From Lancefieldella sp. Marseille-Q7238 (GTDB taxonomy: Bacteria > Actinomycetota > Coriobacteriia > Coriobacteriales > Atopobiaceae): a stretch of DNA of 64,000 bases. The stretch is from NCBI RefSeq assembly GCF_949152215.1, contig NZ_OX424407.1, positions 748,530 to 812,529 of the forward strand, given 5' to 3'. A program made the position numbers and the translations under genes. The notes beneath the pieces are model-generated. The model did not search any database, was not told where the DNA came from, and saw nothing but the letters and a program-made list of their open reading frames with translations. Positions 27,452 to 52,058 of this stretch are shown one piece after another. Numbering within the stretch: position 1 is the stretch's first letter; each line of letters begins with the position of its first letter.

Positions 27452-28330
27452 CTAAGCCAAGAAGCCAAAGTACGCTCCAATGACTCCTAAAACCATGGTA
27501 CCTAAAATAAGCCACATGGGATTGATCTTCTTGGCAAGAAGCCGGTAATAGATCCAAAATGCACTCATACCAACGATACCGGGCATGATGCTGTCAAGTA
27601 CGGTTTGAATGGTGGTTGGATCCTGACCCTCAACGGCCTGACCAATCTGCACGGGAATAGTTGCCCAGAACATATCTTTTGTCATACCACCAATAACCAT
27701 CGCACCCACGATGCCAATGGCAGCTATGACTTTCTGCATCAATCCGCTTTCGGATGCCTTCTCAAGAAAGCCCACTCCCATTGAATAGCCTTTTTGAACA
27801 CCCCAAACGCGAAGCCAGAACGCGGGAATGTTGTAGATGAGCAAAAAGACAATAGGTCCGGCCGCATTGCCCGCTTGACAAAGTGAAATACCTACGGCTG
27901 CGGCGACAACGCGAATGGTAGTAAGGAAGATAGCGTCACCAATGCCGGAAAGCGGACCCATGAGAGCGGCCTTAACGTCATTGACCGAATCAGGTTCAAT
28001 CTCACCGCGTGAGACACGCTCCTCCATAGCCATTGCAATGCCGCCAACAAACGGAGCAAACTGCACCGTGATATTGAAGAATGCCGCGTGACGGCGAAGA
28101 GCCGCCGCATAGTCATCAGGACGATCGTGATAAATCTTCTTGAGCATGCCGGCAACCATAAGACAAAACGCGAGGTTCATCTGCTTATAGTACGTCCAGG
28201 AAAACTCCATGCCCAAGGCGCCTGTATTGAGCGAAGACTTGATAAGATCGCTCTTGGTGATCTTATACTGATTATTATTCGCAGATACGTCAGTTTGAGC
28301 CGTAGTAGTTCTGGTCTTATTAGAAGTCAT
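27452..28330 (-). CDS. PTS mannose-family IID component
   Basis: A 292-residue membrane protein of the mannose-type phosphotransferase system. Family features are TGALGMEFSWTYYKQMNLAFCLMVAGMLKKIY near the start, the ALMGPLSGIGDAIF loop, and C-terminal hydrophobic segments. With IIC it forms the sugar channel. The start at ATG 28330 overlaps the IIC gene by 11 bases and is served by the GGAG inside the IIC tail. It is the last gene of the operon. Confidence 0.93.
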   Translation of the reverse strand: MTSNKTRTTTAQTDVSANNNQYKITKSDLIKSSLNTGALGMEFSWTYYKQMNLAFCLMVAGMLKKIYHDRPDDYAAALRRHAAFFNITVQFAPFVGGIAMAMEERVSRGEIEPDSVNDVKAALMGPLSGIGDAIFLTTIRVVAAAVGISLCQAGNAAGPIVFLLIYNIPAFWLRVWGVQKGYSMGVGFLEKASESGLMQKVIAAIGIVGAMVIGGMTKDMFWATIPVQIGQAVEGQDPTTIQTVLDSIMPGIVGMSAFWIYYRLLAKKINPMWLILGTMVLGVIGAYFGFLA

Positions 28331-29099
28331 CGTCGTCATCTCCTTCCGTTTCAAGCTGGGGACTACCGGAGTTGGCACCAAAGTTCAACAGGCCGAACTT
28401 CTCGATACCGATAATGATGGCGATAAGAGCAACGCCTAGCGAAGGAACGTTCATATACGAAGCAAGCAGGAAGCCTAGGAAGAAGAAGGGCAGAATCTCG
28501 CGCTTGAGAACAAGCCTGCCGAGCATAGCAAAGCCCATGGCAGGAAGAATATTGGCGGCAATACCAAAACCGTCCATAATGAACGCCGGAATCCAGTCAA
28601 GAAGGTTCTGTACAGCGCCGGCACCCAGATAATACGCAAAGCCGACGAGAAGAACGTTCTTCACAAGACCGATAAGGCCAATTGCCCAGTGCGCCACGTA
28701 AATACTTTTAAGATCACCCCTAGAAGCGCATACGTCGGCCTTGTCAACAATAATTGGCATAACGCCGTTGATAACGTTGCTGATAGCAAGCGAAAGCGTA
28801 GCGATAGGCATTGCCAGAGCAAGCGCCGCTTCAGTACCTTTTCCCAGCGTAATAGCAAAGGCGCAGGCAAGAATACTGCCTACCTTTTCGTCGGGCGGCA
28901 AATATGCACCGATGGAAATATTTCCCATAAAAAGAAGTTCAAGGCTGGCGCCAATAGCCAGTCCCGTCGGCAAGTCTCCCAGAATAAGACCGATTAAGGG
29001 ACACGTAACAATGGGTCTGAACGCATAGAGCGTACCAAGCTGATAATCAAACATCGCAAACGCTGTAACGAGCGATATCAGCAGTGTCTGTACGAGCAT
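28320..29099 (-). CDS. PTS mannose-family IIC component
   Basis: A 259-residue integral membrane protein. TCPLIGLILGDLPTGLAIGASLELLFMG and ISIGAYLPPDEKVGSILA are hallmark mannose-family IIC loops; seven or eight helices follow. The C-terminus ends in a run of five Asp. It forms the translocation path together with IID. ATG 29099 follows TTGGAGGAAAG. The order is IIA, IIB, IIC, IID on one transcript. Confidence 0.93.
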   Translation of the reverse strand: MLVQTLLISLVTAFAMFDYQLGTLYAFRPIVTCPLIGLILGDLPTGLAIGASLELLFMGNISIGAYLPPDEKVGSILACAFAITLGKGTEAALALAMPIATLSLAISNVINGVMPIIVDKADVCASRGDLKSIYVAHWAIGLIGLVKNVLLVGFAYYLGAGAVQNLLDWIPAFIMDGFGIAANILPAMGFAMLGRLVLKREILPFFFLGFLLASYMNVPSLGVALIAIIIGIEKFGLLNFGANSGSPQLETEGDDDDDF

Positions 29100-29156
29100 C
29101 TTTCCTCCAATCAAACTGTCTCAAACACTACATTGGTCGTGCAGGATCACGCGAGA

Positions 29157-29633
29157 CTATCTACCAAGGACATCTTCAATCTTGACCTTGGGATCGTCAG
29201 CAAGGGGCCGTATTTCCACCTCCACTCCCTTATCAAGCAACTCGTGAATGATCTCCTCCTCTTCAGGTTCAAGGAAGACCTGGCGAGCAACCTCGCGCGT
29301 AGTCGGACTTCCTTTGGTATTGCCTAGGTTTAAACTCTTGATTTGCGGACAACCATCGATAAGCTGCTTGGCTTCTGCAATGGTCTGCACACAGATAAGC
29401 ATGCGGTACTTGTCCGTCACGCCCGAGTTGATAGCTTCAACAGCATGAGCCATATCTTTAATGACCAGCTTGCAATCGGCTGGCTTACCCATCTTGAGTG
29501 TCATCTTCCAAACGGGATCATTCGCTACATGATCCCCTACACAAAAAATGCAGTTGGCCTGCAGGCCCTGAACCCAAGAGACGGCAACCTGTCCGTGCAG
29601 TAAACGATGATCAACCCTCGTAAGTAAAATCAT
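29157..29633 (-). CDS. PTS mannose-family IIB component
   Basis: A 158-residue cytoplasmic phosphotransfer protein. The start RVDHRLLHGQVAVSW holds the phosphorylated histidine, His13. KPADCKLVIKDM and LNLGNTKG fit the family. It takes phosphate from IIA and passes it to the sugar as it leaves the IIC/IID channel. It lies between IIA and IIC with short gaps. Confidence 0.93.
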   Translation of the reverse strand: MILLTRVDHRLLHGQVAVSWVQGLQANCIFCVGDHVANDPVWKMTLKMGKPADCKLVIKDMAHAVEAINSGVTDKYRMLICVQTIAEAKQLIDGCPQIKSLNLGNTKGSPTTREVARQVFLEPEEEEIIHELLDKGVEVEIRPLADDPKVKIEDVLGR

Positions 29634-29671
29634 GGTCAGCCTCTTTTCCTGAAAGCTAGATTCCCTAAAAG

Positions 29672-30091
29672 CTAGAAGGTTTCATCTTCTTCAAGCGTAG
29701 ATACATCATTCACAAGTTTTGGATGTACTTCAGTATTCGCAACAAGCTGTCTCAAAAGGTCTACCGTATTCTCAGTCTCATCAGAGAGAAAGAGCGTAAG
29801 CACCAGCGGAAGATTTATATTTGTGACCACATATACGTTCTTACGAGAAAGCATAAGTTTGGTGAACTCATTGTTTATGCTTCCTCCCATAAGGTCTGTC
29901 AGCACCACCACATCCGTGTCATTAGAAAAGGCGTCTACAAGAGCCAGGGCTTCCTTCTCGACATCATCATGTCCGTCTACGAACGCGTTGAGCACGTGCA
30001 CGTCAGCACGTTCCCCCATCAAAAGTTTTACGCTCTCGTAAAGACCTTTGGCAAAGTGTGCATGAGAAGCAATGATATAGTGCCTGTTCAT
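29672..30091 (-). CDS. PTS mannose-family IIA component
   Basis: A 139-residue cytoplasmic IIA protein. The phosphorylated His10 is in IIASHAHFAKGL. VVVLTDLMGGSINNEF is the conserved second block. It receives phosphate from HPr. Its start overlaps the stop of the epimerase gene by 4 bases (ATGA), which ties the transporter to that enzyme. Confidence 0.93.
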   Translation of the reverse strand: MNRHYIIASHAHFAKGLYESVKLLMGERADVHVLNAFVDGHDDVEKEALALVDAFSNDTDVVVLTDLMGGSINNEFTKLMLSRKNVYVVTNINLPLVLTLFLSDETENTVDLLRQLVANTEVHPKLVNDVSTLEEDETF

Positions 30092-30936
30092 GAATGAATC
30101 TCCTCCAGTGCCCTTCTATAAGCCGCAAGTGATCTTCTGTCCGCAGATGCGGGATCGGCGTAATATTGCGAACCAACAATCTCAAAACTCAGGTGACCTT
30201 TGTAGTCATTTCTTGTCAAAGCGAGAAGATCAGCCTCCAGGTTCCTCTCGCCATCTCCCCACGCCAAATGTGATACGGTCCCTGCATCCGTGAAGTGACA
30301 ATGCACGACATCTTTTCCAAAGGCATCAAAATAATCCTGTATCGTTTCATGGGCTCTCCACATGGCACCCGTATCAAGTAGAACCTTGAGGATGCTGCTT
30401 CCAACCTCATCAATCAACCTGCGAAGATCCTCACACCTGTTGCAAAGATTTGATTCTTCCGACTGAAGCGCCTCCACGGCAAGTACGATACCTTTGTGAG
30501 CAGCATACGATGACAAATCATTCAACATATAAACGCTGCGCTTCCAGGCTTCCGTGCGTTCTTCATCCAGAAAGCCCCAGCCCGGAGTTACGACAACTAT
30601 TCCCACTCCCAGCTCGGAAGCAACGTTAATGGCACGGAGAAAGTAATCCTTGGTTCTTTTAATTGATTCTTCTCCTCTGGCAGCAATGTTTGCCGGTTTG
30701 GGATTGTTCTGCTCGGGACAAAGCGCACATACGTCTAACCCAAAACTATTGGCAAGACGGGTAATCTTTTTAGGCGTATCATTTGAAGCATAATCAAGAA
30801 AGAAGTGCATGGGTCCGGTCCAGAGTTCAATGGCTTCAAACCCCGAATCTGCCGCAGATGCAAAAAACGCTTCCAGCGAGAAGAACCTGTGGGAGCAATT
30901 CATTGCTGCCGGAAGAAATCGCACATCAGAACCCAT
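30088..30936 (-). CDS. Sugar phosphate isomerase/epimerase (FrlC-like TIM barrel)
   Basis: A 282-residue TIM-barrel protein of the xylose-isomerase-like/AP-endonuclease-2 group. GFEAIELWTGPMHFFLDY, then VVVTPGWGFLDEERTEAWKR, LAVEALQSEESNLCN, LLDTGAMW and VVHCHFTDA carry the metal-binding Glu, Asp, His and Glu positions. The group includes FrlC, which interconverts psicoselysine and fructoselysine; the SIS gene next to it supports that role here. AAAGGAGG before ATG 30936 is excellent. Confidence 0.85.
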   Translation of the reverse strand: MGSDVRFLPAAMNCSHRFFSLEAFFASAADSGFEAIELWTGPMHFFLDYASNDTPKKITRLANSFGLDVCALCPEQNNPKPANIAARGEESIKRTKDYFLRAINVASELGVGIVVVTPGWGFLDEERTEAWKRSVYMLNDLSSYAAHKGIVLAVEALQSEESNLCNRCEDLRRLIDEVGSSILKVLLDTGAMWRAHETIQDYFDAFGKDVVHCHFTDAGTVSHLAWGDGERNLEADLLALTRNDYKGHLSFEIVGSQYYADPASADRRSLAAYRRALEEIHS

Positions 30937-30972
30937 ACCAACCTCCTTTCCAATATCCGAACCACTCGAACA

Positions 30973-32034
30973 CTAATACTCAAACTGATGGTAGTAGCGG
31001 CGATATTTGAGATTGTGCTTGGTTACCATCTCATAGTGTCTGGCTAAACGATCAGTCGTAAGAAGCGAGATAATATAAGACGAAACGATCGTACGGAATT
31101 TCTCATCAAGACCGGGAATGGCGTATTCTTTGGTATCAATAACGGTAATATCGGTATCACCGGTACGACCACTCATAAGGAACTTCTCGACACGTTCATC
31201 CAGTGCACGGCATTCATCTTCGCCTTTGAAGAGAACCACGGGTACACCGGGCTCCACAAGCTCCAGCGTTCCATGAAAGAAATCGGCTGAAGTGATATAG
31301 CGTGTACGCTTCCACTGCATTTCTTCAAGAATACACATAGAGAAGAGGATTGTCTCGCCCCACAGCGCACCGGAGCCGATAAACATGGTGTACGGCGCAA
31401 GAGCATACTTTTTGGCAAACTCTTCGGCTTTTGGTTCAAATCTTTTGCGAATGTCGAGAAACGCCGCCCATATATTCTTGGTTTGCTCGATAAATGCATC
31501 GTAATCAGGGAAGAAGCCTTCATGGTTAAGAATGCGCAGGCCAAAGCAGTCAGCTAGATAGTAGCCCTTTTCGCAACCACCGCTTCCGTGATTGTTTTTC
31601 ATGGACACACATCGATCAGCACCAACAACTTGTCCGATAGGACTGTCTGCCTGAGTCATGGCGTATATTCTCACACCCTTGTTTTTCATGGTCTTGAGCG
31701 CCTGCAGTACCTCGGGAGTGGTACCGGACTCGGATGAAGTGAGAACAACGGACTTCTCGGTCATGGTTTTATCACCCATGACATTAAACTCGGCCGCATG
31801 AAGCAGTGTAACTTGATGATCAGCATCCGCATATTTGTTCATAAGATACTGCATACGCAAAAACTCATCCCACGTGCCGCCCACACCCAAAAGATACAGC
31901 CGATCAAACCCCTCGTTACAGACATCGTCGGCAAACTGTTTCATGCGCTGACCTACGGTGTAGAGCTCTTTTCCATCTTCAAGATAACCTTCTTGATCAA
32001 AGTGCATAATCTCAACTTTTTCGGTTTCTTCCAT
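30973..32034 (-). CDS. SIS-domain deglycase, FrlB/GfrF-like
   Basis: A 353-residue double-SIS protein. YLLGVGGTWDEF and VLTSSESGTTPEV bind the phosphosugar in the first domain. The second holds ADFFHGTLELVEPGVPVVLFKGEDECRALDERVEKFL, which closely follows FrlB, the fructoselysine 6-phosphate deglycase. Such enzymes split Amadori products, phosphorylated at C6, into glucose 6-phosphate and an amino acid. ATG 32034 has GGAAGGAG; a longer in-frame start lacks support. It is the first gene of the PTS operon; the missing FrlD kinase is explained if the PTS phosphorylates the substrate. Confidence 0.85.
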   Translation of the reverse strand: MEETEKVEIMHFDQEGYLEDGKELYTVGQRMKQFADDVCNEGFDRLYLLGVGGTWDEFLRMQYLMNKYADADHQVTLLHAAEFNVMGDKTMTEKSVVLTSSESGTTPEVLQALKTMKNKGVRIYAMTQADSPIGQVVGADRCVSMKNNHGSGGCEKGYYLADCFGLRILNHEGFFPDYDAFIEQTKNIWAAFLDIRKRFEPKAEEFAKKYALAPYTMFIGSGALWGETILFSMCILEEMQWKRTRYITSADFFHGTLELVEPGVPVVLFKGEDECRALDERVEKFLMSGRTGDTDITVIDTKEYAIPGLDEKFRTIVSSYIISLLTTDRLARHYEMVTKHNLKYRRYYHQFEY

Positions 32035-32186
32035 ATTGCTCTCCTTCCCCACAAAACATCCCAATTGCTCTTCCTCATAACCGCAATGTCTTACCAATTA
32101 AAGCGCCTTGTGGATGCGTGCGCATGGCCTCCAAAATGCTTTGACCTTCCAAAGAACCATAGAGATACAAGTTCATACTTTTTATT

Positions 32187-32291
32187 ACCACTTTTGTGTA
32201 TAAGATAGCAAAATACCGAACCACTTTAATGAAAAAAGATTATATACATGTGTCCATACGGGTAAGTGGTATTAAATTGTCGCTCAGTGGT
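32187..32291 (-). promoter_or_regulatory. Promoter of the deglycase-PTS operon with four operator-like half-sites
   Basis: A TATAAT box on the - strand (32239-32244) sits about 200 bases before the deglycase gene. Around it are four copies of ACCACTT or its complement: 32187-32193 and 32220-32226 read on +, 32264-32270 and 32285-32291 read on - (the last with one change). The copy at 32264 covers the -35 position. Two GntR/UTRA genes lie just upstream, so these are likely their sites. Confidence 0.6.
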
Positions 32292-32328
32292 ATATATGGG
32301 ATTGACTGCTTGGCAAAATACCCGAACA

Positions 32329-33057
32329 TCAGTGGGAAACCGAATAGCCGCCTAGGTCTCCCCTTCTGAATGCCGAAACATATTCAACAGCCTTGCTGTC
32401 TTCATCATAGCTCACGCATTCGTATGAAATAACAGGCGCACCCTCGCTCACACCTAAAAGATGTGCATCTCTCACACCCAAGCGAGCCATATCCAGATGC
32501 TCAACTGCAGATACTACCGGATGACCAAACATGCTGTAGGCTTCATACAGTGAAAACACTCCAACATCCACACTCTCTATCTGGGGAAATAATGGGATGG
32601 GAATATAGGTTTTTTCTATCATAAGGGGAGCATCGTTTGCATAATTCAGGCGCTTGATGGTGAGAATATCGGCGTTGCAATCTATTCCAAAAAGATGCGC
32701 AAAGAACTCGCCCGCCGGCCTCACGGTTTTTGAAAGAACCTTAACTGAAGGTACCGCACTACGTGCGCGAACGCTCTCACGAAATCCTGCAAGCTTTACT
32801 GCATCCGACTCCCCCAAATGCTCGTTCATGACATAGACACCCTTGCCCTGAACACGTCGTAAAAGACCTCCCACCACAAGTGCATCGACAGCGTTTCTCA
32901 CGGTCAAACGTGTTACGTCAAAGCGCTCGGCAAGTTCATTTTCCGAAGGTATGGCACTCCCAGGCTGATAGAAACCATCCTCTATTTCGTCGCGGATAGC
33001 TTCACGTATTTGAAGGTATTTGGGCTTCTCGATATGTTGTAAGTTCACCTGCGTCAC
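32329..33057 (-). CDS. GntR/HutC-family regulator with UTRA domain (second of a pair)
   Basis: A 242-residue repressor or activator. The N-terminal winged helix reads QIREAIRDEIEDGFYQPGSAIPSENELAERFDVTRLTVRNAVDALV, and a UTRA ligand domain follows (LTIKRLNYANDAPLMIEKTYIP). UTRA domains sense sugar phosphates or amino-acid derivatives. I use GTG 33057, which overlaps the upstream regulator stop (GTGA); a TTG one codon earlier is possible. It probably controls the deglycase-PTS operon directly downstream and works with its paralogue. Confidence 0.9.
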   Translation of the reverse strand: MTQVNLQHIEKPKYLQIREAIRDEIEDGFYQPGSAIPSENELAERFDVTRLTVRNAVDALVVGGLLRRVQGKGVYVMNEHLGESDAVKLAGFRESVRARSAVPSVKVLSKTVRPAGEFFAHLFGIDCNADILTIKRLNYANDAPLMIEKTYIPIPLFPQIESVDVGVFSLYEAYSMFGHPVVSAVEHLDMARLGVRDAHLLGVSEGAPVISYECVSYDEDSKAVEYVSAFRRGDLGGYSVSH

Positions 33058-33806
33058 CAAAACGTCCTCTCAAGGCTCATTGGCCTACCGCATAAACTAA
33101 CAAACGTATACCTGTCGGACCGTATGACGGACTTGTAATACTCAAGAGGCTCTTTAGCTTTCCCAAAGTTAATACCCGATTGGAAAAAAACTGCATCTCC
33201 CTCATACATGTCAAGAAGATTCGCTTCTTGAGAATCAAGATGAGTAATGGAAAGGACATCCGTGCCGTGTATGAGAGAAAATCCGTATTCGTTTCTCATA
33301 ACATCAAAAAGAGATTCTTTTGAGAAATCATGACTCTCGATACCGGGACATAATGCTTCGTTCACATAGGAAGTCTCAATCATACAGGGGAGGTCATCCA
33401 CGTAGCGCAAACGCATAAGCTGCAGGACGTTGCAACTTATATCTATACTCAGTTTTCGAGCAACGTGAGCATTGCCCGAACAGATTTTTTGACTAATCAC
33501 CATGGAGTTAGGTATATGTCCAGATTTTCTAACGTTGTCACTAAATCCGTATGTTTCTGCCGTTCCTGTAACCGAGATTGGACGTTCCGGAGCCACATAC
33601 GTACCCGACCCCTGACGACTCTCTAAAACATGCATGGTAGTGAGATGGCGCACGGCGCTCCGTAAAGCAGAGCGCGAGATTTTCCACATTTCACACATAT
33701 CCCGCTCAGAAGGAAGCTTGTCACCTTCCTTAAGATGGTTGACCATGATGTAATTCTTAACACTCTCAAGTGCATTATCAAGAGGCGGAATCTTCTTGCG
33801 TGACAC
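33054..33806 (-). CDS. GntR/HutC-family regulator with UTRA domain (first of a pair)
   Basis: A 250-residue paralogue of the following gene. The winged helix is seen in VKNYIMVNHLKEGDKLPSERDMCEMWKISRSALRSAVRHL and the UTRA domain in VLQLMRLRYVDDLPCMIETSYV. It starts with GTG 33806 after GGGAGG and overlaps the preceding stop by one base (TAGTG). Two tandem regulators of this kind are unusual and may bind different ligands or half-sites of the same promoter. Confidence 0.9.
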   Translation of the reverse strand: MSRKKIPPLDNALESVKNYIMVNHLKEGDKLPSERDMCEMWKISRSALRSAVRHLTTMHVLESRQGSGTYVAPERPISVTGTAETYGFSDNVRKSGHIPNSMVISQKICSGNAHVARKLSIDISCNVLQLMRLRYVDDLPCMIETSYVNEALCPGIESHDFSKESLFDVMRNEYGFSLIHGTDVLSITHLDSQEANLLDMYEGDAVFFQSGINFGKAKEPLEYYKSVIRSDRYTFVSLCGRPMSLERTFW

Positions 33807-34354
33807 TACTTGCCTCCCGATCTACCCTTATCCGCTTGATCTCGCATGGCGAGTATATCTTCGCAGACGTTGTCAGCTCCTTCACGAAGCAGCTTATACA
33901 TACGCGATGCACGCAGTATTTCTCGCCTAACCAAAGAAATGCCCAAGACAAACCCTTTACCGTCGATTCCTTTAACGGTAAGCATGACGTTCATTGAAGT
34001 GCAATACTTGCCATCTTTTCCTGCATTAGCACGAGAAACGGCCGCAGGATTCATGAGCACACTCTCAAACAAATCTTTACGGCTCATATCCTTATTGACA
34101 TCGATGCTTTCGTTTTCGATGACCGTGCAATCCAATATGTCAGCATACTCGTGAATGGCAGGTTCCATTCCTGGAAGCGACACGGCCCATTGCTGATGTA
34201 TCTCATCTTGATAGATGGACGGCACCACAGAGAATTTAGGTGCTTCAAAGATGGCTTTTGTAACTAAAAAGCCCTTATCGGCCAGTTTTTCAGAAACTGA
34301 TTTTCCAAAGAGTGCCACATCTTCTCCGATTCGTATCCCGTATAGAAGGGTCAA
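33806..34354 (-). CDS. Conserved-looking protein of unknown function heading the regulator operon
   Basis: A 182-residue protein I do not recognise. It is mixed alpha/beta with no signal or membrane segment; notable stretches are YGIRIGEDVALFGKSV, FEAPKFSVVPSIYQDEIHQQW, DILDCTVIENESID and GFVLGISLVRREILRAS. It is translationally coupled to the GntR gene that follows. The start is a TTG with a poor ribosome site, so the true start may differ. Its place suggests a sensor or partner of the two regulators, or an enzyme of the Amadori pathway. Confidence 0.6.
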   Translation of the reverse strand: MTLLYGIRIGEDVALFGKSVSEKLADKGFLVTKAIFEAPKFSVVPSIYQDEIHQQWAVSLPGMEPAIHEYADILDCTVIENESIDVNKDMSRKDLFESVLMNPAAVSRANAGKDGKYCTSMNVMLTVKGIDGKGFVLGISLVRREILRASRMYKLLREGADNVCEDILAMRDQADKGRSGGK

Positions 34355-41183: not shown

Positions 41184-41460
41184 GTCCTAAACTCCGCTCA
41201 ATATATTGTAATGTTAGTGATGTCTAACTATATTGTAAGTAAGTATACCGTACACATAAGACCCTTTGTGCTGAGTAAATATGCAAATACCGCCGTTCGC
41301 ATTGACTTGTAAATATCTAATCAAATAGGCTCAGCAACTACCTTTGACCAGTCTGTAGGAATCTAAAATTGTTAAATTTGTAAGATTTGTTGTAACATAT
41401 TGACTGTTAAAAAACTTATTCTTTGCTTTAACGATGCGCCCTCCACTGAAAGGATGCTCA

Positions 41461-42411
41461 ATGAAACAACGTCAATTGGTGCTGGCACTTGTACTTTTCT
41501 TTATACTTTCTTTTGGCGCTGTATTTACTGCTTGTTCTACAGAAACCCCTGAACCATCTGCTGAAGAGATTGCGGCTCAGAAAGCAGAAGAAGAGAAGAA
41601 AGCTGCAATGGCTCCATTCGTAGGCATCTGGGAAGCTAAGTCCATCAACGACCCAGATCAGGGAGAAATTGTTGAAAGCGTTTATCCAACTGCAAGAGAT
41701 GCGTACAAGGCAATTTATGGTTACGATTTTGCTGAGGATGGCACCGGTTTGTTTATTCGTTTTGGCGCTCAAAAGCCATTTACTTGGTCTGTTGATGCTG
41801 ACGGTAAACTTACGATAACTCTTGCAGGAAATGCCGGAAGCTACACGGCAACCGTAGACTCCAGTACAGGTCAGATGACCATTGAAGGTTCCGATGGATC
41901 AAAGGCTATTCTTACGCAGGTCACTAAAACATCTGGTGACTATTCGAGTTTGAAATATAAACCTTTTGATGCAATGGCAGATAGAGGTACTATCGGCCTC
42001 AATTTCTCTAGCAAAATTGAATCCTCTATGCGCTTTAAGTTGAAGACTGAAGTGGATAAAGTGCTTATTGATAACGATGACATCTATGTCCGGTATATGG
42101 GCATAGCAAAAAGTCCAGACGGTTATATGGAAGGCTATGTCTTTGAGATTATCAATAAGTCTGATACATGGATTGCTTGCAATTTTCGATTAGATAATTC
42201 AGATCATACGCTGTGGTCCTATGATTCTAACTACCTGGAGCGTGGCGAGAGATTCTATGCCTTTGTTATTAACAGCTCCAATAAAAAAATGCCTCTTGCC
42301 GATCTTACTAAGGCTGAGGGAGTCATTGAGTATTACCACATCAAGGATGGTAAGAGCCTGGAAGATAATCAAAAACAAGATATCGACTTGGCAGTTGCTC
42401 AGAACAAGTGA
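41461..42411 (+). CDS. Lipoprotein of unknown function (paralogue of 50973-51902)
   Basis: A 316-residue lipoprotein. The signal peptide ends in a lipobox VFTAC. The mature part has FVGIWEAKSINDPDQGEI, FAEDGTGLFIRFG and PFTWSVDADGKLTITL, then SGDYSSLKYKPFD. It looks like a lipocalin-like beta barrel followed by a second beta domain. GAAAGGATG precedes ATG 41461. A close relative sits 10 kb away in the opposite direction with a matching upstream region. Confidence 0.85.
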   Translation: MKQRQLVLALVLFFILSFGAVFTACSTETPEPSAEEIAAQKAEEEKKAAMAPFVGIWEAKSINDPDQGEIVESVYPTARDAYKAIYGYDFAEDGTGLFIRFGAQKPFTWSVDADGKLTITLAGNAGSYTATVDSSTGQMTIEGSDGSKAILTQVTKTSGDYSSLKYKPFDAMADRGTIGLNFSSKIESSMRFKLKTEVDKVLIDNDDIYVRYMGIAKSPDGYMEGYVFEIINKSDTWIACNFRLDNSDHTLWSYDSNYLERGERFYAFVINSSNKKMPLADLTKAEGVIEYYHIKDGKSLEDNQKQDIDLAVAQNK

Positions 42412-42541: not shown

Positions 42542-43225
42542 ATGCGGGTTCTTCTAGCTGAAGATGAAAAAAGAATGGCTGCAGCCATTGTGGCTCTCTT
42601 GAAGCAGGAAAAATACGACGTGGATCACATGACAGACGGCGTATCCGCACTTCTCGCCTTAGAAAGCAATATGTACGACATCGCAATCCTTGATGTCATG
42701 ATGCCTAAAATGAACGGCTTTGAAGTTTCTCGTAAAGCACGGAGCAAGGGAATCAACATCCCCATTTTGATGCTGACGGCAAAAAGTCAGCTGGACGATA
42801 AGGTCGAGGGTCTTGATAACGGTGCCGATGACTACCTGACAAAACCGTTCCATACCGCAGAACTTCTCGCCCGCCTGCGCGCTCTAGGGCGGAGAAGCTC
42901 CAGCTTTCAAGATAGTGTTCTGCACTTTGGAGACCTCTCGCTTGATACTTCAACCGCAACGCTTACCTGCAATTCTTCGGGACAGAGCGTTCGCTTGAGC
43001 GAGAAAGAATTGCGCATCCTGGAGTATATGATTGGAAGCCATGGTCGGATTATGACGCGCGACCAGCTTGCCATTAAGATCTGGGGTTTTGAAAGCGACG
43101 CTGAATACAACAACGTGGAAGTGTATATGTCTTTCACGCGTAAAAAGCTGGCCTTTGTCGGCTCAAAGGTAGAAATCAAAGCCGTTCGCGGCTTGGGATA
43201 TGAATTGAGGGAACAAACTGTTTAG
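42542..43225 (+). CDS. OmpR-family response regulator
   Basis: A 227-residue regulator. The receiver has acidic residues in LLAEDEKR, the phosphorylated Asp51 in AILDVMMPK, LTAK and Lys101 in YLTKPFH. The C-terminal winged helix has RLSEKELRILEYMI and VEIKAVRGLGYEL. It is followed by its sensor kinase and the surface/polymer genes, which are its likely targets. A GGCGAGAAGT element occurs twice inside it (42649-42658 and 42862-42871, both - strand). Confidence 0.95.
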   Translation: MRVLLAEDEKRMAAAIVALLKQEKYDVDHMTDGVSALLALESNMYDIAILDVMMPKMNGFEVSRKARSKGINIPILMLTAKSQLDDKVEGLDNGADDYLTKPFHTAELLARLRALGRRSSSFQDSVLHFGDLSLDTSTATLTCNSSGQSVRLSEKELRILEYMIGSHGRIMTRDQLAIKIWGFESDAEYNNVEVYMSFTRKKLAFVGSKVEIKAVRGLGYELREQTV

Positions 43226-43256
43226 GCAATCCAAAAGAAAAATCATTCTCTCTATT

Positions 43257-44516
43257 ATGGTGTCGCTTGTCCTGTTGTTCGTGGTGACGCTGTCCGTAAT
43301 CCTGTTTGCCAGTTCTCAGGAAATCAGACAGAAAAACATGGACATGCTCAACCGTTATGCCGATCAGTATTCAATGCAGCAGAAATCGGAGACTACTGGG
43401 CAGTCTCGCGCTGGCAGCAAACCGGAGAACCAAACAGGAAATCAACCAAACAACCAACCGCAAAACAAGCCAGAGAATCAGCCTCCGGAAAACAAGCCAG
43501 ACTACGAACTTTCCACGTTCTACTCTGTTACCTTTTCATCTAACGGAAACGTTCTCTCCGTTTACGATGGAGAAAAAACAATCTACTCAAATGATGAGCT
43601 GACAACGCTTGCACGACAAATTTTGGACGAAGGTCACCCTTCCGGAAGAAAAGACAATCTCTCTTATGTGACACGTCAGAAAGACGGCTATACCCTTGTA
43701 GCATTTATGGACAACACGGTATCGGAAGGAGGCCTCAGAACGATGATGCACAATGTTCTCATCGTAGGAGGGGCTTCCATTGTTGTACTGTTTTTCATTT
43801 CCGTGTTCCTGGCAGGACGAATCATCCGCCCTCTGGAAGAAAACGATACGAAGCAAAAACAGTTTATCTCAAATGCGAGCCATGAGCTCAAGACCCCAAT
43901 TTCAGTAATTGGTGTTAACGCAGAAATATTGTCCCGGGAACTTGGCAAAAACGAATGGCTCTCTAATATCCAGTATGAGAATAATCGCATGGGCGAGCTG
44001 GTCGAGCAACTCCTTGAGCTGTCGAGCGCAGAAAATAAAGAAATGTCCATGGAAGAACTTGACTTCTCCCATGTTGTTACAGGAGAGGTTCTCGCCTTTG
44101 AAACACTTGCGTTTGAGAGAGGGAAAACACTTCAGAGCACTATTGAAGAGGAAATCACTCTTACCGGCAATCAGAATCAGCTTACGCAGGTTGTGGCCGT
44201 ATTGTTGGACAATGCCATAAGACACACAACGGGAAATCAGATTGACCTGATCCTGCAGAAGCGAGCACATAACGCCGTTCTCAGCGTTACCAATGACGGT
44301 GAAGAGATTCCACCTGAAAAACTGGAGCATCTCTTTGACCGTTTTTATCGCGTTGATGAAGTACGAAATAGTGAGGATCATCACTATGGACTGGGCCTCT
44401 CAATTGCAAAAGCAATTGTCGAGAAGCACGGTGGAAGCATCGAAGTTTCCTGCTCTGGAGGCAAGGTAACCTTTACCGTTTTGCTTCCAATCAAGCTTGT
44501 AAAGCATCATTTTTAA
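43257..44516 (+). CDS. Sensor histidine kinase
   Basis: A 419-residue membrane kinase. A first helix (VSLVLLFVVTLSVILFA) leads to an extracellular part with a Pro/Asn/Gln-rich repeat (QPNNQPQNKPENQPPENKPD), then a second helix near residue 175. The dimerisation box is FISNASHELKTPISVIG; the ATPase has LLDNAIRHT and GLGLSIAKAI. ATG 43257 has no ribosome site and starts at the edge of the first helix. The frame is open back to a CTG at 43218 that follows GAGGGAAC and overlaps the regulator gene, so the real start may be there. Confidence 0.93.
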   Translation: MVSLVLLFVVTLSVILFASSQEIRQKNMDMLNRYADQYSMQQKSETTGQSRAGSKPENQTGNQPNNQPQNKPENQPPENKPDYELSTFYSVTFSSNGNVLSVYDGEKTIYSNDELTTLARQILDEGHPSGRKDNLSYVTRQKDGYTLVAFMDNTVSEGGLRTMMHNVLIVGGASIVVLFFISVFLAGRIIRPLEENDTKQKQFISNASHELKTPISVIGVNAEILSRELGKNEWLSNIQYENNRMGELVEQLLELSSAENKEMSMEELDFSHVVTGEVLAFETLAFERGKTLQSTIEEEITLTGNQNQLTQVVAVLLDNAIRHTTGNQIDLILQKRAHNAVLSVTNDGEEIPPEKLEHLFDRFYRVDEVRNSEDHHYGLGLSIAKAIVEKHGGSIEVSCSGGKVTFTVLLPIKLVKHHF

Positions 44517-46111: not shown

Positions 46112-46789
46112 ATGGCAGGCGATTTTAGACATGAATGGAAACATGTCATCAACTACGCGGATCTTTTAACACTGCGACATCGGCTCGGAGCCGTCATGGA
46201 GCGCGATCCTCACACCATTGACGGAAAGTACCACATTCGTAGTTTGTACTTTGACAATCCAGATGACAAAGCACTTCGCGAGAAAATCGACGGAGTGAAC
46301 ATCAGAGAGAAGTTCCGTATCCGTTTGTATAACTGGGACACCTCACTGATTAAGTTAGAGAAAAAGAGTAAGAGAAACGGTCTCGGAACTAAGCACTCGG
46401 CCAATCTAACGGCAGAAGAGGCACAAAAGATTGTAGATGGAAGCCTGGATTGGATGATGACTTCAGATCAGGCGCTGGTACAAGAACTGTATTGCAAGAT
46501 GCGCTACCAGAGACTAGAGCCCAAGACCATTGTTGATTACACCAGGGAGCCGTTTATTTTCAAGCCAGGAAATGTCCGCGTCACACTTGATTACGACATT
46601 CGCACTGGTCAGGAGCGCACCGATTTTCTCGACCCTGAGGTAGTAACTATTCCTGCGGGAGATGCACCCATGTTGGTTGAAGTGAAGTGGGACGAGTTTC
46701 TCCCCACCATTATCAGAGACGCGGTTACCCTTCCAAATCGCCGCATTGGAGCGTTTTCTAAGTACGCGCAATGTCGCGTTTACGGTTAG
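46112..46789 (+). CDS. VTC-domain (polyphosphate polymerase-like) protein
   Basis: A 225-residue protein of the VTC/CYTH-like tunnel fold. The basic and acidic tunnel residues are seen in FRHEWKHVINYAD, YHIRSLYFDNPDD, EKFRIRLYN, LIKLEKKSKRNGLGTKHS, and VDYTREPFIF with VRVTLDYDIRTG. In yeast Vtc4 this domain makes polyphosphate from ATP. The bacterial paralogues next to DUF4956 are thought to act similarly, but their product is not established. AGGGAGG precedes the ATG. It is 16 bases before the DUF4956 gene. Confidence 0.9.
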   Translation: MAGDFRHEWKHVINYADLLTLRHRLGAVMERDPHTIDGKYHIRSLYFDNPDDKALREKIDGVNIREKFRIRLYNWDTSLIKLEKKSKRNGLGTKHSANLTAEEAQKIVDGSLDWMMTSDQALVQELYCKMRYQRLEPKTIVDYTREPFIFKPGNVRVTLDYDIRTGQERTDFLDPEVVTIPAGDAPMLVEVKWDEFLPTIIRDAVTLPNRRIGAFSKYAQCRVYG

Positions 46790-46805
46790 ATGAAAGGAGT
46801 TTGAG

Positions 46806-47477
46806 ATGACTTTCGCAGATATTTTCAAGTCCAGTTTTCTTCAGAACGTTACCAGTGTCAGTATTTTAGACATGGTACTTGCACTGGTACTTGCATTTGG
46901 CGTTGGCCTGTTTATTTTCTTTGTGTATAAGAAGACCTACGCAGGAGTTATGTATTCGTCCTCTTTTGGTGTCACCTTAGTTGCTCTGACGATGATCACT
47001 ACCCTTGTCATCCTAGCCGTTACCAGCAACATTGTGCTGTCCCTTGGTATGGTTGGCGCGCTGTCCATTGTCAGGTTCCGTACAGCAATTAAGGAGCCAA
47101 TGGACATTGCATTTCTGTTTTGGTCCATCGCGGTAGGTATTGTTTTAGCCGCTGGTCTTATTCCTTTGGCAGTTTTTGGCACGGTTATTATCGGCATCAT
47201 TTTGCTGGTATTTGCTAACCAGAAGGACAACACCAATCCATACATTGTTGTTCTTGCTCTTGACGGCAACGACGCCGAGAAAGCAGCAACAGAGTTTTTG
47301 GCACAGAACACTAAGAAATGCGTTGTAAAGAGTAAAACCGCTCGTAAGGATGACGTAGAGGTCAACCTAGAGGTACGCCTCAATAACGACAACACCGATT
47401 TCATCAATACTCTGGCTTCCATGCCTGGCGTTCAGAATGCGGTTCTTGTCAGCTATAACGGAGACTATATGGGTTAA
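46806..47477 (+). CDS. DUF4956 membrane protein
   Basis: A 223-residue protein with three or four helices. LSLGMVGALSIVRFRTAIKEPMDIAFLFWSIAVGI is the family hallmark. A cytoplasmic C-terminal domain of about 75 residues (EVRLNNDNTDFINTLASMPGVQNAVLVSYNGDYMG) has a ferredoxin-like look. The family almost always sits beside a VTC-domain protein, as here, and probably forms the membrane part of the polymer system. AAAGGAG precedes the ATG. Confidence 0.9.
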   Translation: MTFADIFKSSFLQNVTSVSILDMVLALVLAFGVGLFIFFVYKKTYAGVMYSSSFGVTLVALTMITTLVILAVTSNIVLSLGMVGALSIVRFRTAIKEPMDIAFLFWSIAVGIVLAAGLIPLAVFGTVIIGIILLVFANQKDNTNPYIVVLALDGNDAEKAATEFLAQNTKKCVVKSKTARKDDVEVNLEVRLNNDNTDFINTLASMPGVQNAVLVSYNGDYMG

Positions 47478-47489
47478 GGAGGAAACGAC

Positions 47490-49328
47490 GTGTTCACGGA
47501 TAAAAATATCAACAAGATTTGTATGGTCGTTCTCGTGTTCACGCTTCTTCTGACTGTTGCCTTTATAAACGGCAAGGAGCTAGGAATTACCTCCATAGAA
47601 GATCAGGATGCGGAAAATTACACCGCAAACGCTTACTTTACGGACAATGATCAAGACGGAGATTGGGCGGACAACGCTTATACCACCCATATCACACTTA
47701 ACGGCACAGATGGAACTATAAGCGGTAACGGTGCTTATTTCCAGGATGGCAATCTGGTGATTGCAAACGGTGGCTGGTATGAGATAGCGGGCACCCTTGA
47801 TAACGGCAGTATTATTGTTAAGGCAGAGAATTCTTCCAAGGTTTGGATTCGCCTTAACGGAGTTTCCGTTACCTGCACCGACGACGCCTGTCTCAGAATT
47901 GATCAGGCCGAGAAGGTCTTTCTCTCTCTTGCAGAGGGTACGGATAATACCTTTACCAGCGGTGATACGTACTCCGAGGAGGCGCTGGCTGACAATACCG
48001 GCGGTACAATTTATGCACACGACGATCTAACCATCAACGGTACGGGCAACCTTACTATTACTGCTGGTTACAAGCACGGTATTGATGCTAATGATTCCCT
48101 TGTTATCACAGGCGGAAACATTACCATCACAGCACCTCAAGATGGTATTCACGTCAACGATGGCTTCAGCTTTACGTCGGCTCACCTCACCATTGATGCC
48201 GGCGATGACGGTATCCATAGCGATACATTCATCTATACAGAGAGTGGAACCATATTGGTCAACTCCTGCTACGAGGGACTTGAAGCAAAGACTATCGATA
48301 TCGCAGGCGGCAACATCACCATTTATCCAACTGATGATGGCATTAATGCCAATGGCGATACCACTACAAACGGTGGTATGGGTGGTGGACCTGGCGGCGG
48401 CAACGGCGACCAGGGAGACCAAGATGACAGCGGCGAAAAGAACGACACGACCGAGACTACTGAAGAGAAGGAGACATATATTCACATTTCCGGCGGAACG
48501 GTAACCATTATCAATACAACCGGTAATGATGCGGACGGACTGGATTCCAACGGAAGCATTTACATTAACGGCGGAACGATTCTTATCAGCCTTCCGGGCG
48601 GAAATACCAATAACGCTATTGACTACGGTAGCGAAAATAACGGTAAAGCCATTGTTACAGGTGGTACGGTAATTGGTTTTGGTGGATCTGGTATGGCTGA
48701 GGAATTCAGCTCTGATTCTACTCAAGTGGCAGTTCTGTATAACTTGGACGAAACCGTAGAAGCGGGAACTACTTTCCGTGTTCTTGATCAAGATGGTACA
48801 GAAATTTTAGCCTACACGCCAACCACCACCTATTCTTCCATCGCATTCAGCTCCCCACAGTTAGCTGTTGGAAAAACGTACACCATAGAGTACGGCGATA
48901 CAACTGCTGAGCTTACTATTGAAAGCACCGCACAGGCCGTTGGCACAAGCGGCGGTATGGGCGGGGGTCCCGGACAAGGACAAGGTGGAGGATCTGGTCA
49001 GGGCAGTGTCTCTGACCAGGGTGGCGGTCCCGGACAGAATGGCGATCTACCAAGCCAAGGCAGTAATTCAAGCCAAAGTGAAAATACCGAGGGCGGCAAC
49101 CAGCAGAGAGAGCCAGGAGGAACACCTCCACAGCAAAATGGTGGAAACGGTGGTCCAAATGGTCAAGAGGCGGAGAAGAACGCTGAAACCGATAAGACCA
49201 ACACCACGACATCTGACAACTTTATTTCTCTTGATGAGATTGACGAGACTGTCTGGAAGCTGTTAGGCGGATCAATACTTGTGCTGATACCTGCAATTGT
49301 CTTTGCAATGAAGTATAAAAAGAGCTGA
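47490..49328 (+). CDS. Cthe_2159-like surface protein (carbohydrate-binding beta-helix)
   Basis: A 612-residue protein anchored at both ends: an N-terminal helix (ICMVVLVFTLLLTVAFI) and a C-terminal helix (LLGGSILVLIPAIVFAM) before KYKKS. Between are beta-helix turns of the Cthe_2159 type: VWIRLNGVSVTCTDDACL, VFLSLAEGTDNTF, DDLTINGTGNLTITAGYKHGI, and repeated DDGIHS or DDGINA turns. The Gly/Gln/Pro-rich stretch before the last helix should span the wall. The founding protein binds pectin or cellulose-like sugars. Starts at GTG with AAGGAGG. Confidence 0.88.
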   Translation: MFTDKNINKICMVVLVFTLLLTVAFINGKELGITSIEDQDAENYTANAYFTDNDQDGDWADNAYTTHITLNGTDGTISGNGAYFQDGNLVIANGGWYEIAGTLDNGSIIVKAENSSKVWIRLNGVSVTCTDDACLRIDQAEKVFLSLAEGTDNTFTSGDTYSEEALADNTGGTIYAHDDLTINGTGNLTITAGYKHGIDANDSLVITGGNITITAPQDGIHVNDGFSFTSAHLTIDAGDDGIHSDTFIYTESGTILVNSCYEGLEAKTIDIAGGNITIYPTDDGINANGDTTTNGGMGGGPGGGNGDQGDQDDSGEKNDTTETTEEKETYIHISGGTVTIINTTGNDADGLDSNGSIYINGGTILISLPGGNTNNAIDYGSENNGKAIVTGGTVIGFGGSGMAEEFSSDSTQVAVLYNLDETVEAGTTFRVLDQDGTEILAYTPTTTYSSIAFSSPQLAVGKTYTIEYGDTTAELTIESTAQAVGTSGGMGGGPGQGQGGGSGQGSVSDQGGGPGQNGDLPSQGSNSSQSENTEGGNQQREPGGTPPQQNGGNGGPNGQEAEKNAETDKTNTTTSDNFISLDEIDETVWKLLGGSILVLIPAIVFAMKYKKS

Positions 49329-50972: not shown

Positions 50973-51902
50973 CTATTCAGACTTAGGAGGAATGTTTAAA
51001 TCAAGCTCTGTCTTCTGCTTTTGCTCCGTCACAGTACCGTCCTTTGCGCTGTTATAAGCAGTAGTCAAAATGGCTTTTGGATTAGAAATTCCTACAAGAG
51101 ATCCTGGGGTTTTTGAAACATTAGGTATAAAGAAATAGAATTTCTCGCCAGGCTCCACAAACGTATTGCCACTGGCATTGAGAGGTCCCGTTATGTCGCC
51201 AAGCCAAAATTCTGTATAGAGAACATCTGAATACTTATTGACAATCTCAAAAACGTAACCCTCTTGAGAAGTTCCTGGAACCTGAGCGATGGCGTACAAG
51301 CTCATGTGTAACTTTTCGGTATCAATAAGAGTCTTATTAACTTCTCGGGTTACTTCGAACTTCTTTTCTTTTAAGTCATTAAACGTAGAAGTATGAGGAA
51401 TGGTGCCTTTGTTGGTCAGCTGATCAAAAGGTTCATAAGCAACACTTGAGTAGTCTCCTGCAGTTTTTGAAACTTGCTTAAGCTCGGCATCCGTTTCATC
51501 CGAACCCTTAAGTCTTAACCTGCCTGTACTTGTATCAATGCTACCTGTAAAAGTACCTGCAGTTCCTTCAAGGTTCACGGTAATTTTTCCATCACCGTCA
51601 GCAGTCCAAGTAAATGGTTTCTGTACTCCAAAGCGGATAAACGTACCGGTGCCATCTTCGGCAAAATTAAAAGCATATATTGCTTGGAACTGTTCGCTGA
51701 TCTTGGAGTATCCCTCCTCGGTCATGGTGCCTTGTTTGGGATCGTAAATATCGTATGCTTCCCAAACGCCTGCAATCTGTCCGGCTGAACTCTTGTTTTC
51801 AGGAGTGGTTCCCTTGTTTTCTGAAGAACACGCGGCAAGTACTCCTGTTACAGAAAGTACCAACGCAAGTACGCACGCTAACAGCATTTGACGCTTTTTC
51901 AT
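50973..51902 (-). CDS. Lipoprotein of unknown function (paralogue of 41461-42411)
   Basis: A 309-residue lipoprotein with lipobox VLAAC. It shares with its paralogue IAGVWEAYDIYDPKQG, FAEDGTGTFIRFGVQKPFTW, a GTFTGSIDTSTGRL-like strand pair, AGDYSSVAYEPFD and a matching second domain. GAAAGGATG precedes ATG 51902. The upstream 90 bases also match, with an AT-rich block around TTGACT. The two genes point toward each other across 10 kb. Confidence 0.85.
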   Translation of the reverse strand: MKKRQMLLACVLALVLSVTGVLAACSSENKGTTPENKSSAGQIAGVWEAYDIYDPKQGTMTEEGYSKISEQFQAIYAFNFAEDGTGTFIRFGVQKPFTWTADGDGKITVNLEGTAGTFTGSIDTSTGRLRLKGSDETDAELKQVSKTAGDYSSVAYEPFDQLTNKGTIPHTSTFNDLKEKKFEVTREVNKTLIDTEKLHMSLYAIAQVPGTSQEGYVFEIVNKYSDVLYTEFWLGDITGPLNASGNTFVEPGEKFYFFIPNVSKTPGSLVGISNPKAILTTAYNSAKDGTVTEQKQKTELDLNIPPKSE

Positions 51903-52058
51903 GGGACATCCTTTCAGGGGTGCAGTGTCAAAGCAAAATAAGTTTTTAATAGTCAATATGATACAACAAATCCAATAAATTAGAAAATTTTAGGTTCTTC
52001 ATATCTCCGTTCATATCTCCGCGAAATATGTTGCGGCATACGACAACACGCTAATTCA

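Follow-up and report, generated by a model that had tools for sequence, protein, structure and literature searches.

A predicted gfr-type Amadori compound utilization locus with an FrlC-like epimerase in Lancefieldella

Which compound is served by a locus that joins a complete mannose-family phosphotransferase system (PTS) to a SIS deglycase and an FrlC-like epimerase, with no recognized kinase, and in which form would that compound reach the epimerase? The question is raised by nine head-to-tail genes on the minus strand at positions 27452-34354 of a 64,000-nucleotide stretch of the oral bacterium Lancefieldella sp. Marseille-Q7238 (contig NZ_OX424407.1, positions 748,530 to 812,529), hereafter the window, which is part of a single 1.6-Mb contig. 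In the direction of transcription, the genes encode a 182-residue protein (P182), two GntR/UTRA regulators (GntR2 and GntR1), the SIS protein, the epimerase and the PTS subunits IIA-IIB-IIC-IID. Based on homology, we propose, with a probability of about 0.7, that the locus is a gfr-type operon for the utilization of Amadori compounds (fructosamines). Heated food contains much fructoselysine, and most of the bacteria with a known ability to remove it live in the gut; the present proposal would place a compact PTS-fed route in an oral Lancefieldella and across Coriobacteriia.

In the proposed pathway, the PTS would import fructoselysine or a close relative and phosphorylate it at C6 during entry, and the GfrF-like SIS protein would split the resulting fructosamine 6-phosphate into glucose 6-phosphate and a free amino acid, most likely lysine. 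The epimerase may, with about even chances, act on psicoselysine 6-phosphate and yield fructoselysine 6-phosphate; a single deglycase would then suffice for both epimers. Conservation suggests that one or both GntR/UTRA proteins control the unit from the SIS gene to the IID gene through a repeated ATACCA[CT]T sequence, with P182 as a partner. Directly observed are the genes with their kinship and joint conservation, a Lys/Tyr difference among epimerases and the repeated sequence; the substrate and the enzyme activities are predictions from homology. PTS-fed fructosamine use is a known kind of system; its variant part here is the epimerase, the two GntR regulators and the PH-like partner.

The SIS protein and the PTS

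The best PDB matches of the window SIS protein are 2a3n and 8glr (264 and 263 bits), followed at 102 bits by 3eua, a putative fructose-amino-acid-6-phosphate deglycase. We take 2a3n to be the Salmonella protein STM4540, that is, GfrF. In a Klebsiella plasmid operon with the order sigma54 regulator-IIA-IIB-IIC-IID-SIS-SIS, the product of the last SIS gene (KpGfrF) matches 2a3n and 8glr at 650 and 645 bits; this layout agrees with gfrABCDEF as published (PMC12675984), and the match is an independent check on the GfrF identity. The window SIS protein is 39% identical to KpGfrF (240 bits), compared with 23% for KpGfrE (30 bits) and 23% for E. coli FrlB (77 bits). In a tree of 48 SIS rows, the clade of the window comprises 19 Coriobacteriia rows (support 100/100) and joins KpGfrF at 93/83, while GfrE groups separately with the second SIS proteins found in relatives (100/99), and E. 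coli GlmS lies beside this group. By these comparisons, the protein is GfrF-like rather than E. coli FrlB-like. The first-pass annotation had called it FrlB-like; the kinship with SIS deglycases stands, and the closer affiliation shifts to GfrF.

The best NCBIfam family of the SIS protein is fructoselysine 6-phosphate deglycase (1.2e-19), with a score of 70.8 bits that is far below the cut-off of 430. A Glu and a His 16 residues apart (E234 and H250) are invariant in 14 of 14 rows of our alignment A1. The segment LEEMQWKRTRYITSADFFHG of the window protein aligns with KpGfrF, FrlB and GlmS, and the Glu/His pair, which is presumably catalytic, is common to all of them.

An amino-sugar locus, with a PTS importing amino sugars and a SIS protein acting as glucosamine- or galactosamine-phosphate deaminase/isomerase, is highly implausible. 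The PTS subunits do match Aga and galactosamine families, with scores under the cut-off, and the SIS protein matches GlmS and NagB-II weakly (for the NagB-II family, 53 residues at 4.3e-05); nevertheless, the tree places GlmS on the side of GfrE, the best PDB matches are GfrF-like, the Gfr PTS proteins are nearer than Man, and no NagA-like family was found among the locus proteins. The first-pass annotation had set its reading against a grouping of the SIS protein with glucosamine-6-phosphate deaminase types; this was tested in part, with a tree that includes GlmS and no NagB-II protein.

A second alternative is that the SIS protein is a glucoselysine-6-phosphate deglycase and that the locus serves Heyns products, given that gfr loci handle both fructoselysine and glucoselysine. 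However, GfrE-like proteins are encoded by a separate gene in 10 of the 21 family loci described below, and the window locus contains no such gene; probing the whole genome with a GfrE-like sequence yielded only two frames, of 619 and 664 amino acids, at 24% identity. One of them corresponds to the window's 609-amino-acid frame at 57914-59743, which we take, by recognition, to be GlmS-like. PMC12675984 is contradictory on the roles of the two enzymes, its text and a figure legend giving opposed assignments of GfrE and GfrF to the two compounds; its growth data lean to GfrF for fructoselysine, yet with residual growth in the gfrF mutant. PMC12136445 assigns glucoselysine to GfrE. Considering also the difference in bit score between KpGfrF and KpGfrE, we regard this alternative as quite improbable.

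All four PTS subunits are nearer, by sequence, to the Gfr proteins than to the E. coli Man proteins. EIIA is 36% identical to KpGfrA (35-36% across the Klebsiella and Enterococcus faecium Gfr proteins) and 25% to ManX; EIIB is 49% and 46% identical to Enterococcus and Klebsiella GfrB, respectively, and 28% to ManX; EIIC is 44% and 42% identical to Klebsiella and Enterococcus GfrC, respectively, and 28% to ManY; and EIID is 38% identical to GfrD of Klebsiella and E. faecium alike and 32% to ManZ. Among the 12 listed of 295 plasmid records with an EIIC match, E. faecium and Klebsiella supply the best ones outside Collinsella, and three Klebsiella/E. faecium plasmid neighbourhoods around EIIC are all gfr-like operons. 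The enzyme I family is present in the genome. A Pfam scan recognized no kinase family among the locus proteins, and E. coli FrlD matched, in the whole genome, only the C-terminal parts (61-92 residues, 28-36% identity) of six frames of 318-663 amino acids. Homology thus supports the first-pass reading of an oral bacterium with a gfr-like, PTS-fed Amadori pathway, to which an FrlC-like epimerase is added and whose locus has no kinase.

The same machinery could also serve another Amadori substrate, such as fructose-asparagine or an alpha-glycated amino acid or peptide, instead of fructoselysine. SIS deglycases of other specificity exist, for example Salmonella FraB, the fructose-asparagine enzyme of PMC9609667, and an identity of only 39% to KpGfrF does not fix the amine. 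By contrast, of the references compared, a Gfr protein is the best match for each of the four PTS subunits as well as for the SIS protein, and Collinsella intestinalis DSM 13280 (L073) has the core genes in a changed order, with no epimerase gene. This species reportedly consumes fructoselysine, and fructoselysine-induced loci are said to occur in Collinsella, both after Wolf in 2019. According to PMC10255453, C. intestinalis can degrade dietary advanced glycation end products. We hold another Amadori substrate to be a serious but unlikely alternative to fructoselysine.

The genes named by the first-pass annotation are all open on the minus strand, at the positions it gave (Table 1). Adjacent genes overlap (by 7 bp for GntR1/GntR2 and 4 bp for EIIA/epimerase) or lie at most about 60 bp apart; the one exception is the 294-bp gap that separates the GntR1 stop from the SIS start at 32034. 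This ATG is the most likely start of the SIS gene, giving 353 amino acids, although the open frame extends to 32097. The true start of P182 is probably an internal GTG near 34318, and EIIC and EIID probably start at the ATG codons at 29099 and 28339, respectively. Fusions involving SIS or regulator domains, suggested by frames of 720, 644, 495, 469 and 450 amino acids, were rejected; the upstream parts of these frames are GC-rich shadow extensions, not fused domains.

Table 1. Features of the predicted Amadori compound locus, in window coordinates
Feature	Position	Strand	Support
P182, predicted PH-like domain protein (DUF4428 kind, no zinc ribbon)	33806..34354	-	no Pfam/NCBIfam family
GntR2, GntR/UTRA regulator	33054..33806	-	Pfam GntR 7.1e-13, UTRA 3.4e-28; 21/21 loci
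GntR1, GntR/UTRA regulator	32329..33060	-	Pfam GntR 5.4e-19, UTRA 2e-27; 21/21 loci
Operator-like region (predicted)	32187..32293	-	repeated ATACCA[CT]T and two AGTGGT copies
SIS protein, GfrF-like Amadori-6-phosphate deglycase (predicted)	30973..32034	-	Pfam SIS 4.2e-07
FrlC-like TIM-barrel epimerase	30088..30936	-	Pfam AP_endonuc_2 3.4e-37
PTS EIIA, mannose family	29672..30091	-	Pfam EIIA-man 6.3e-18
PTS EIIB, mannose family	29157..29633	-	Pfam PTSIIB_sorb 3.5e-43
PTS EIIC	28320..29102	-	Pfam EII-Sor 4.5e-66
PTS EIID	27452..28351	-	Pfam EIID-AGA 1.3e-81

In another genome of the same species (L052, G025:C1:785000-804000), a second mannose-type PTS is encoded between two SIS proteins that are 24% identical to E. 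coli FrlB and 20% to the window SIS protein. The window genome has a single SIS match at 1e-10.

The epimerase and its substrate

The best NCBIfam family of the epimerase is fructoselysine 3-epimerase (1.4e-33), at 116.6 bits and far below the equivalog cut-off of 305. Its structural model (mean pLDDT 88) has sugar epimerases and isomerases as PDB matches. Residues E155, D188, H214 and E252, which we take to be the metal ligands of the epimerase barrel, are invariant in 13 of 13 rows, E. coli FrlC included. FrlC itself is said, after Wiame in 2004, to work on free, that is, unphosphorylated, fructoselysine and psicoselysine. Because the PTS should hand over a 6-phosphate, the substrate of the window epimerase should be phosphorylated, unlike that of FrlC, and the use of psicoselysine would require an epimerase acting at the phosphate level, a point that the first-pass annotation did not consider.

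We compared 15 system-linked epimerases (14 encoded beside a PTS and one, L072, beside the SIS gene only) with nine others. In the loop after beta3, the linked rows have a Lys (K80 of the window protein) in 15 of 15 cases, whereas the others have a Tyr in nine of nine. A second comparison, of five further others and two further PTS regions, gave Tyr in all five and Lys in both PTS regions, one of which (L125) is the genome behind L076 and had already been counted. The loop reads CPxQ-x-x-PKP in the linked rows and [TC]PE-xxx-Y in 14 of 14 others, E. coli FrlC among them; in the window, CPEQNNPKP replaces the Tyr with a Lys and has one extra residue. A permease, an ATP-binding cassette transporter or a kinase was recognized in the loci of 12 of the 14 other epimerases and in neither of the remaining two (L053 and L121). 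Both loop types occur within one genome, G496, which carries a Tyr form (L124) and a Lys form (L126).

Alternatively, the epimerase might act on the unphosphorylated compound, arriving by another entry route or by leak, with the PTS serving fructoselysine only. That FrlC is the best named family of the epimerase speaks for this, as does the major facilitator superfamily (MFS) gene that accompanies 10 of the 21 family loci. Nevertheless, no MFS match was found near the window locus, no recognized kinase is present there to use the free product, and the loop differs from that of kinase- or permease-linked relatives, even within G496. An epimerase of the free compound is, in our estimate, rather improbable, while phosphate-level epimerization by the window protein has roughly one chance in two of being correct.

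A more specific proposal, which we put forward tentatively and at somewhat less than even odds, is that the PTS-linked epimerases constitute a distinct psicoselysine-6-phosphate/fructoselysine-6-phosphate 3-epimerase, in which the invariant Lys of the CPEQNxPKP loop and a nearby Arg would hold the 6-phosphate. Both C3 epimers would then be usable, the epimerase being an add-on alternative to GfrE, and a three-protein control unit, made up of the two GntR/UTRA proteins and the PH-like partner, would bind direct repeats spaced 21 bp apart. No description of a psicoselysine 6-phosphate epimerase was found in the limited literature collection searched. A testable question follows, namely whether PTS-coupled epimerases have shifted from the free compound to the 6-phosphate.

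PTS-linked epimerases were found only within Coriobacteriia, in a search that left out Clostridia and most Bacilli. At phylum level, 6 of 396 genomes had a match to the epimerase at E<=1e-25, all from the same order. Among plasmids, 99 records matched, of which the best 25 were listed; in the three non-Collinsella neighbourhoods read, two epimerase genes cluster with a kinase gene and one has a PfkB gene approximately 10 kb away. A scan of viral contigs gave no relatives. The only phage match, of the Tyr type, is in an unannotated 5-kb record (L121, MT838646.1) that is flagged UNVERIFIED and filed as bacteriophage; this FrlC-like epimerase may be encoded by bacterial DNA. Another locus, L123 (G236:C2:53000-70000), is a doubled kinase-type Amadori locus, in which a single SIS gene is accompanied by a pair of neighbouring genes for FrlC-like epimerases and another such pair for FrlD-like kinases.

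Control region, regulators and P182

The 294-bp gap between GntR1 and the SIS gene contains ATACCACT at 32286-32293 and again at 32265-32272, in the same orientation and 21 bp apart, followed by AGTGGT copies at 32220-32225 and 32187-32192. Considering the 23 loci scored of the 36 at hand, ATACCA[CT]T is present in the gap after GntR1 in 15, against an expectation of 0.19 based on random intervals within these loci; the figure is optimistic because many of these regions also served to derive the motif. Pairs exactly 21 bp apart and in the same orientation were found in 8 of the 23 loci, from about four lineages, the window included. No copy was found upstream of P182 in the window. The sequence GTNTANAC, the operator pattern of many GntR/HutC regulators, was also tried as a candidate and rejected, with eight occurrences in the window versus 9.5 expected and none in the gap before the SIS gene.

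The two tandem UTRA regulators of the first-pass annotation were recovered as such, both proteins having Pfam GntR and UTRA domains; GntR1 is 28% identical to E. coli FrlR. The 182-residue protein had been described as unknown. This holds in that it belongs to no Pfam or NCBIfam family (a Pfam search with 18 members, at E up to 10, retrieved seven families with one member each, the best at 0.037), and can be refined as follows. In its AlphaFold2 model (mean pLDDT 83), P182 has no Foldseek match at E<=0.001, and the top VIA-align match is the bacterial PH domain 3hsa (Z 9.2, root-mean-square deviation 2.9, 100 aligned residues), for which the tool warns that a Z near 8 can reflect a common arrangement. 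Further VIA-align rows are mostly PH, PTB and FERM domains. Additionally, the P182 profile matches the C-terminal half of a DUF4428 protein, L150 (E 1.5e-8 with Z 1000; 4.1e-7 in the genome search), and there are at least seven further profile matches at 2.6e-4 to 7.6e-3 among the sequences listed. On the model and the profile match together, P182 is probably a PH-like domain akin to that of DUF4428 proteins, with no zinc ribbon. A regulatory role is suggested by its position next to the two GntR regulators.

At E<1e-40, P182 is present in the same 22 of 140 family genomes as the SIS gene; 12 of these supplied rows of the profile, so that presence there is by construction, which does not apply to the lack of strong matches in the other 118 genomes. 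Two of the latter have weak matches, namely G051 (4.1e-7, the DUF4428 protein) and G127 (9e-4). In plasmids, a single record, from Collinsella, contains P182. As a form of regulation, the steady link between a putative PH-like protein and two GntR regulators is so far unexplained.

Distribution and comparison with known systems

The 22 family genomes contain SIS relatives at 63-100% identity, and the locus is present in three of the five genomes listed for the genus. We examined 21 loci, the window included, omitting one of the 22 because its contig ends in the SIS gene. The eight core genes, encoding P182, GntR2, GntR1, the SIS protein and IIABCD, occur together in all 21, which exceeds chance, although several of these loci are from near relatives and are thus not independent cases. 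The epimerase gene is present in 12 of the 21 loci, and the GfrE-like second SIS gene and the MFS gene in 10 each. Three loci have both the epimerase and the GfrE-like gene, nine the epimerase alone, seven the GfrE-like gene alone and two neither; the two genes look like alternative add-ons, in counts that include near-copies and are not corrected for ancestry. A wider contig scan, with two search patterns that both suit the Coriobacteriia clade, found 34 loci, all in Coriobacteriia, C. intestinalis DSM 13280 included.

Compared with gfrABCDEF of Salmonella, and with the like operons on Klebsiella and E. faecium plasmids, in which one PTS and two deglycases handle fructoselysine and glucoselysine, the window locus shares the mannose-family PTS with separate IIA, IIB, IIC and IID subunits, the GfrF-like SIS protein and the lack of a kinase. 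It differs in having no GfrE-like gene, in the added epimerase, in the SIS gene preceding the PTS genes, and in two GntR/UTRA regulators and P182 in place of the sigma54 regulator. In Collinsella, Enorma and Olsenella, gfr-like loci share the SIS clade, the regulators and P182 with the window, mostly together with the PTS; unlike the window, many also encode an MFS protein and a second, GfrE-like SIS protein, or have their genes apart, and only some have the epimerase. These are probably the fructoselysine loci reported by Wolf et al. 2019, and parts of the variant may thus already be described. In frlABCD of E. coli K-12 and in the kinase-type loci of Coriobacteriia and Priestia, an FrlC-like epimerase is likewise encoded near a SIS deglycase gene, but with a permease and an FrlD-like kinase, where these were recognizable, in place of the PTS, and with a Tyr in the loop after beta3. 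The seven-gene gfrABCDF of Faecalibacterium prausnitzii, as described in PMC12136445, resembles the window in having a PTS and GfrF without GfrE, and in one extra gene without a Salmonella counterpart; this likeness is by description only.

Several observations weigh against the proposed pathway or parts of it. The amino acid specificity is not readable from sequence, and the enzyme activities are predicted. The window SIS protein, at 23% identity to E. coli FrlB, nevertheless resembles a kinase-type SIS protein of Priestia (36%, 204 bits) more closely than it does E. faecium GfrF (32-33%, approximately 180 bits), and the two E. faecium GfrF rows join the kinase-type proteins in the tree; GfrF is thus not one clean clade in these sequences, and the sister support of KpGfrF is only 93/83. 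Regarding the epimerase, which is absent from 9 of the 21 loci, the 15 linked rows form one clade (98/100), which implies a single event, and the Lys may be a matter of common descent instead of serving to bind phosphate. The loop is poorly modelled (pLDDT <50 at residues 78-82). Outside the family, the gene set is looser: L072, which supplied one of the linked epimerases, and L080 have the regulators and the SIS gene and no PTS gene in the stretch examined. Finally, 8 of the 23 gaps lack ATACCA[CT]T, and the optimistic count of this motif bears on the proposed control.

Four Collinsella loci (L069, L070, L071 and L074) contain two SIS genes of the window clade and a second, divergent PTS in tandem (44-45% for IIB and 38% for IIC). 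In L069 and L074, the epimerase gene follows the second IID gene. Such loci may hold a duplicate of the pathway with another specificity.

Elsewhere in the window, two similar lipoprotein-like genes, at 41434-42411 and 50973-51956, lie on either side of a stretch that, by recognition only, presumably encodes a two-component system (42542-44516) and a VTC/DUF4956/CotH-like group (46112-49328).

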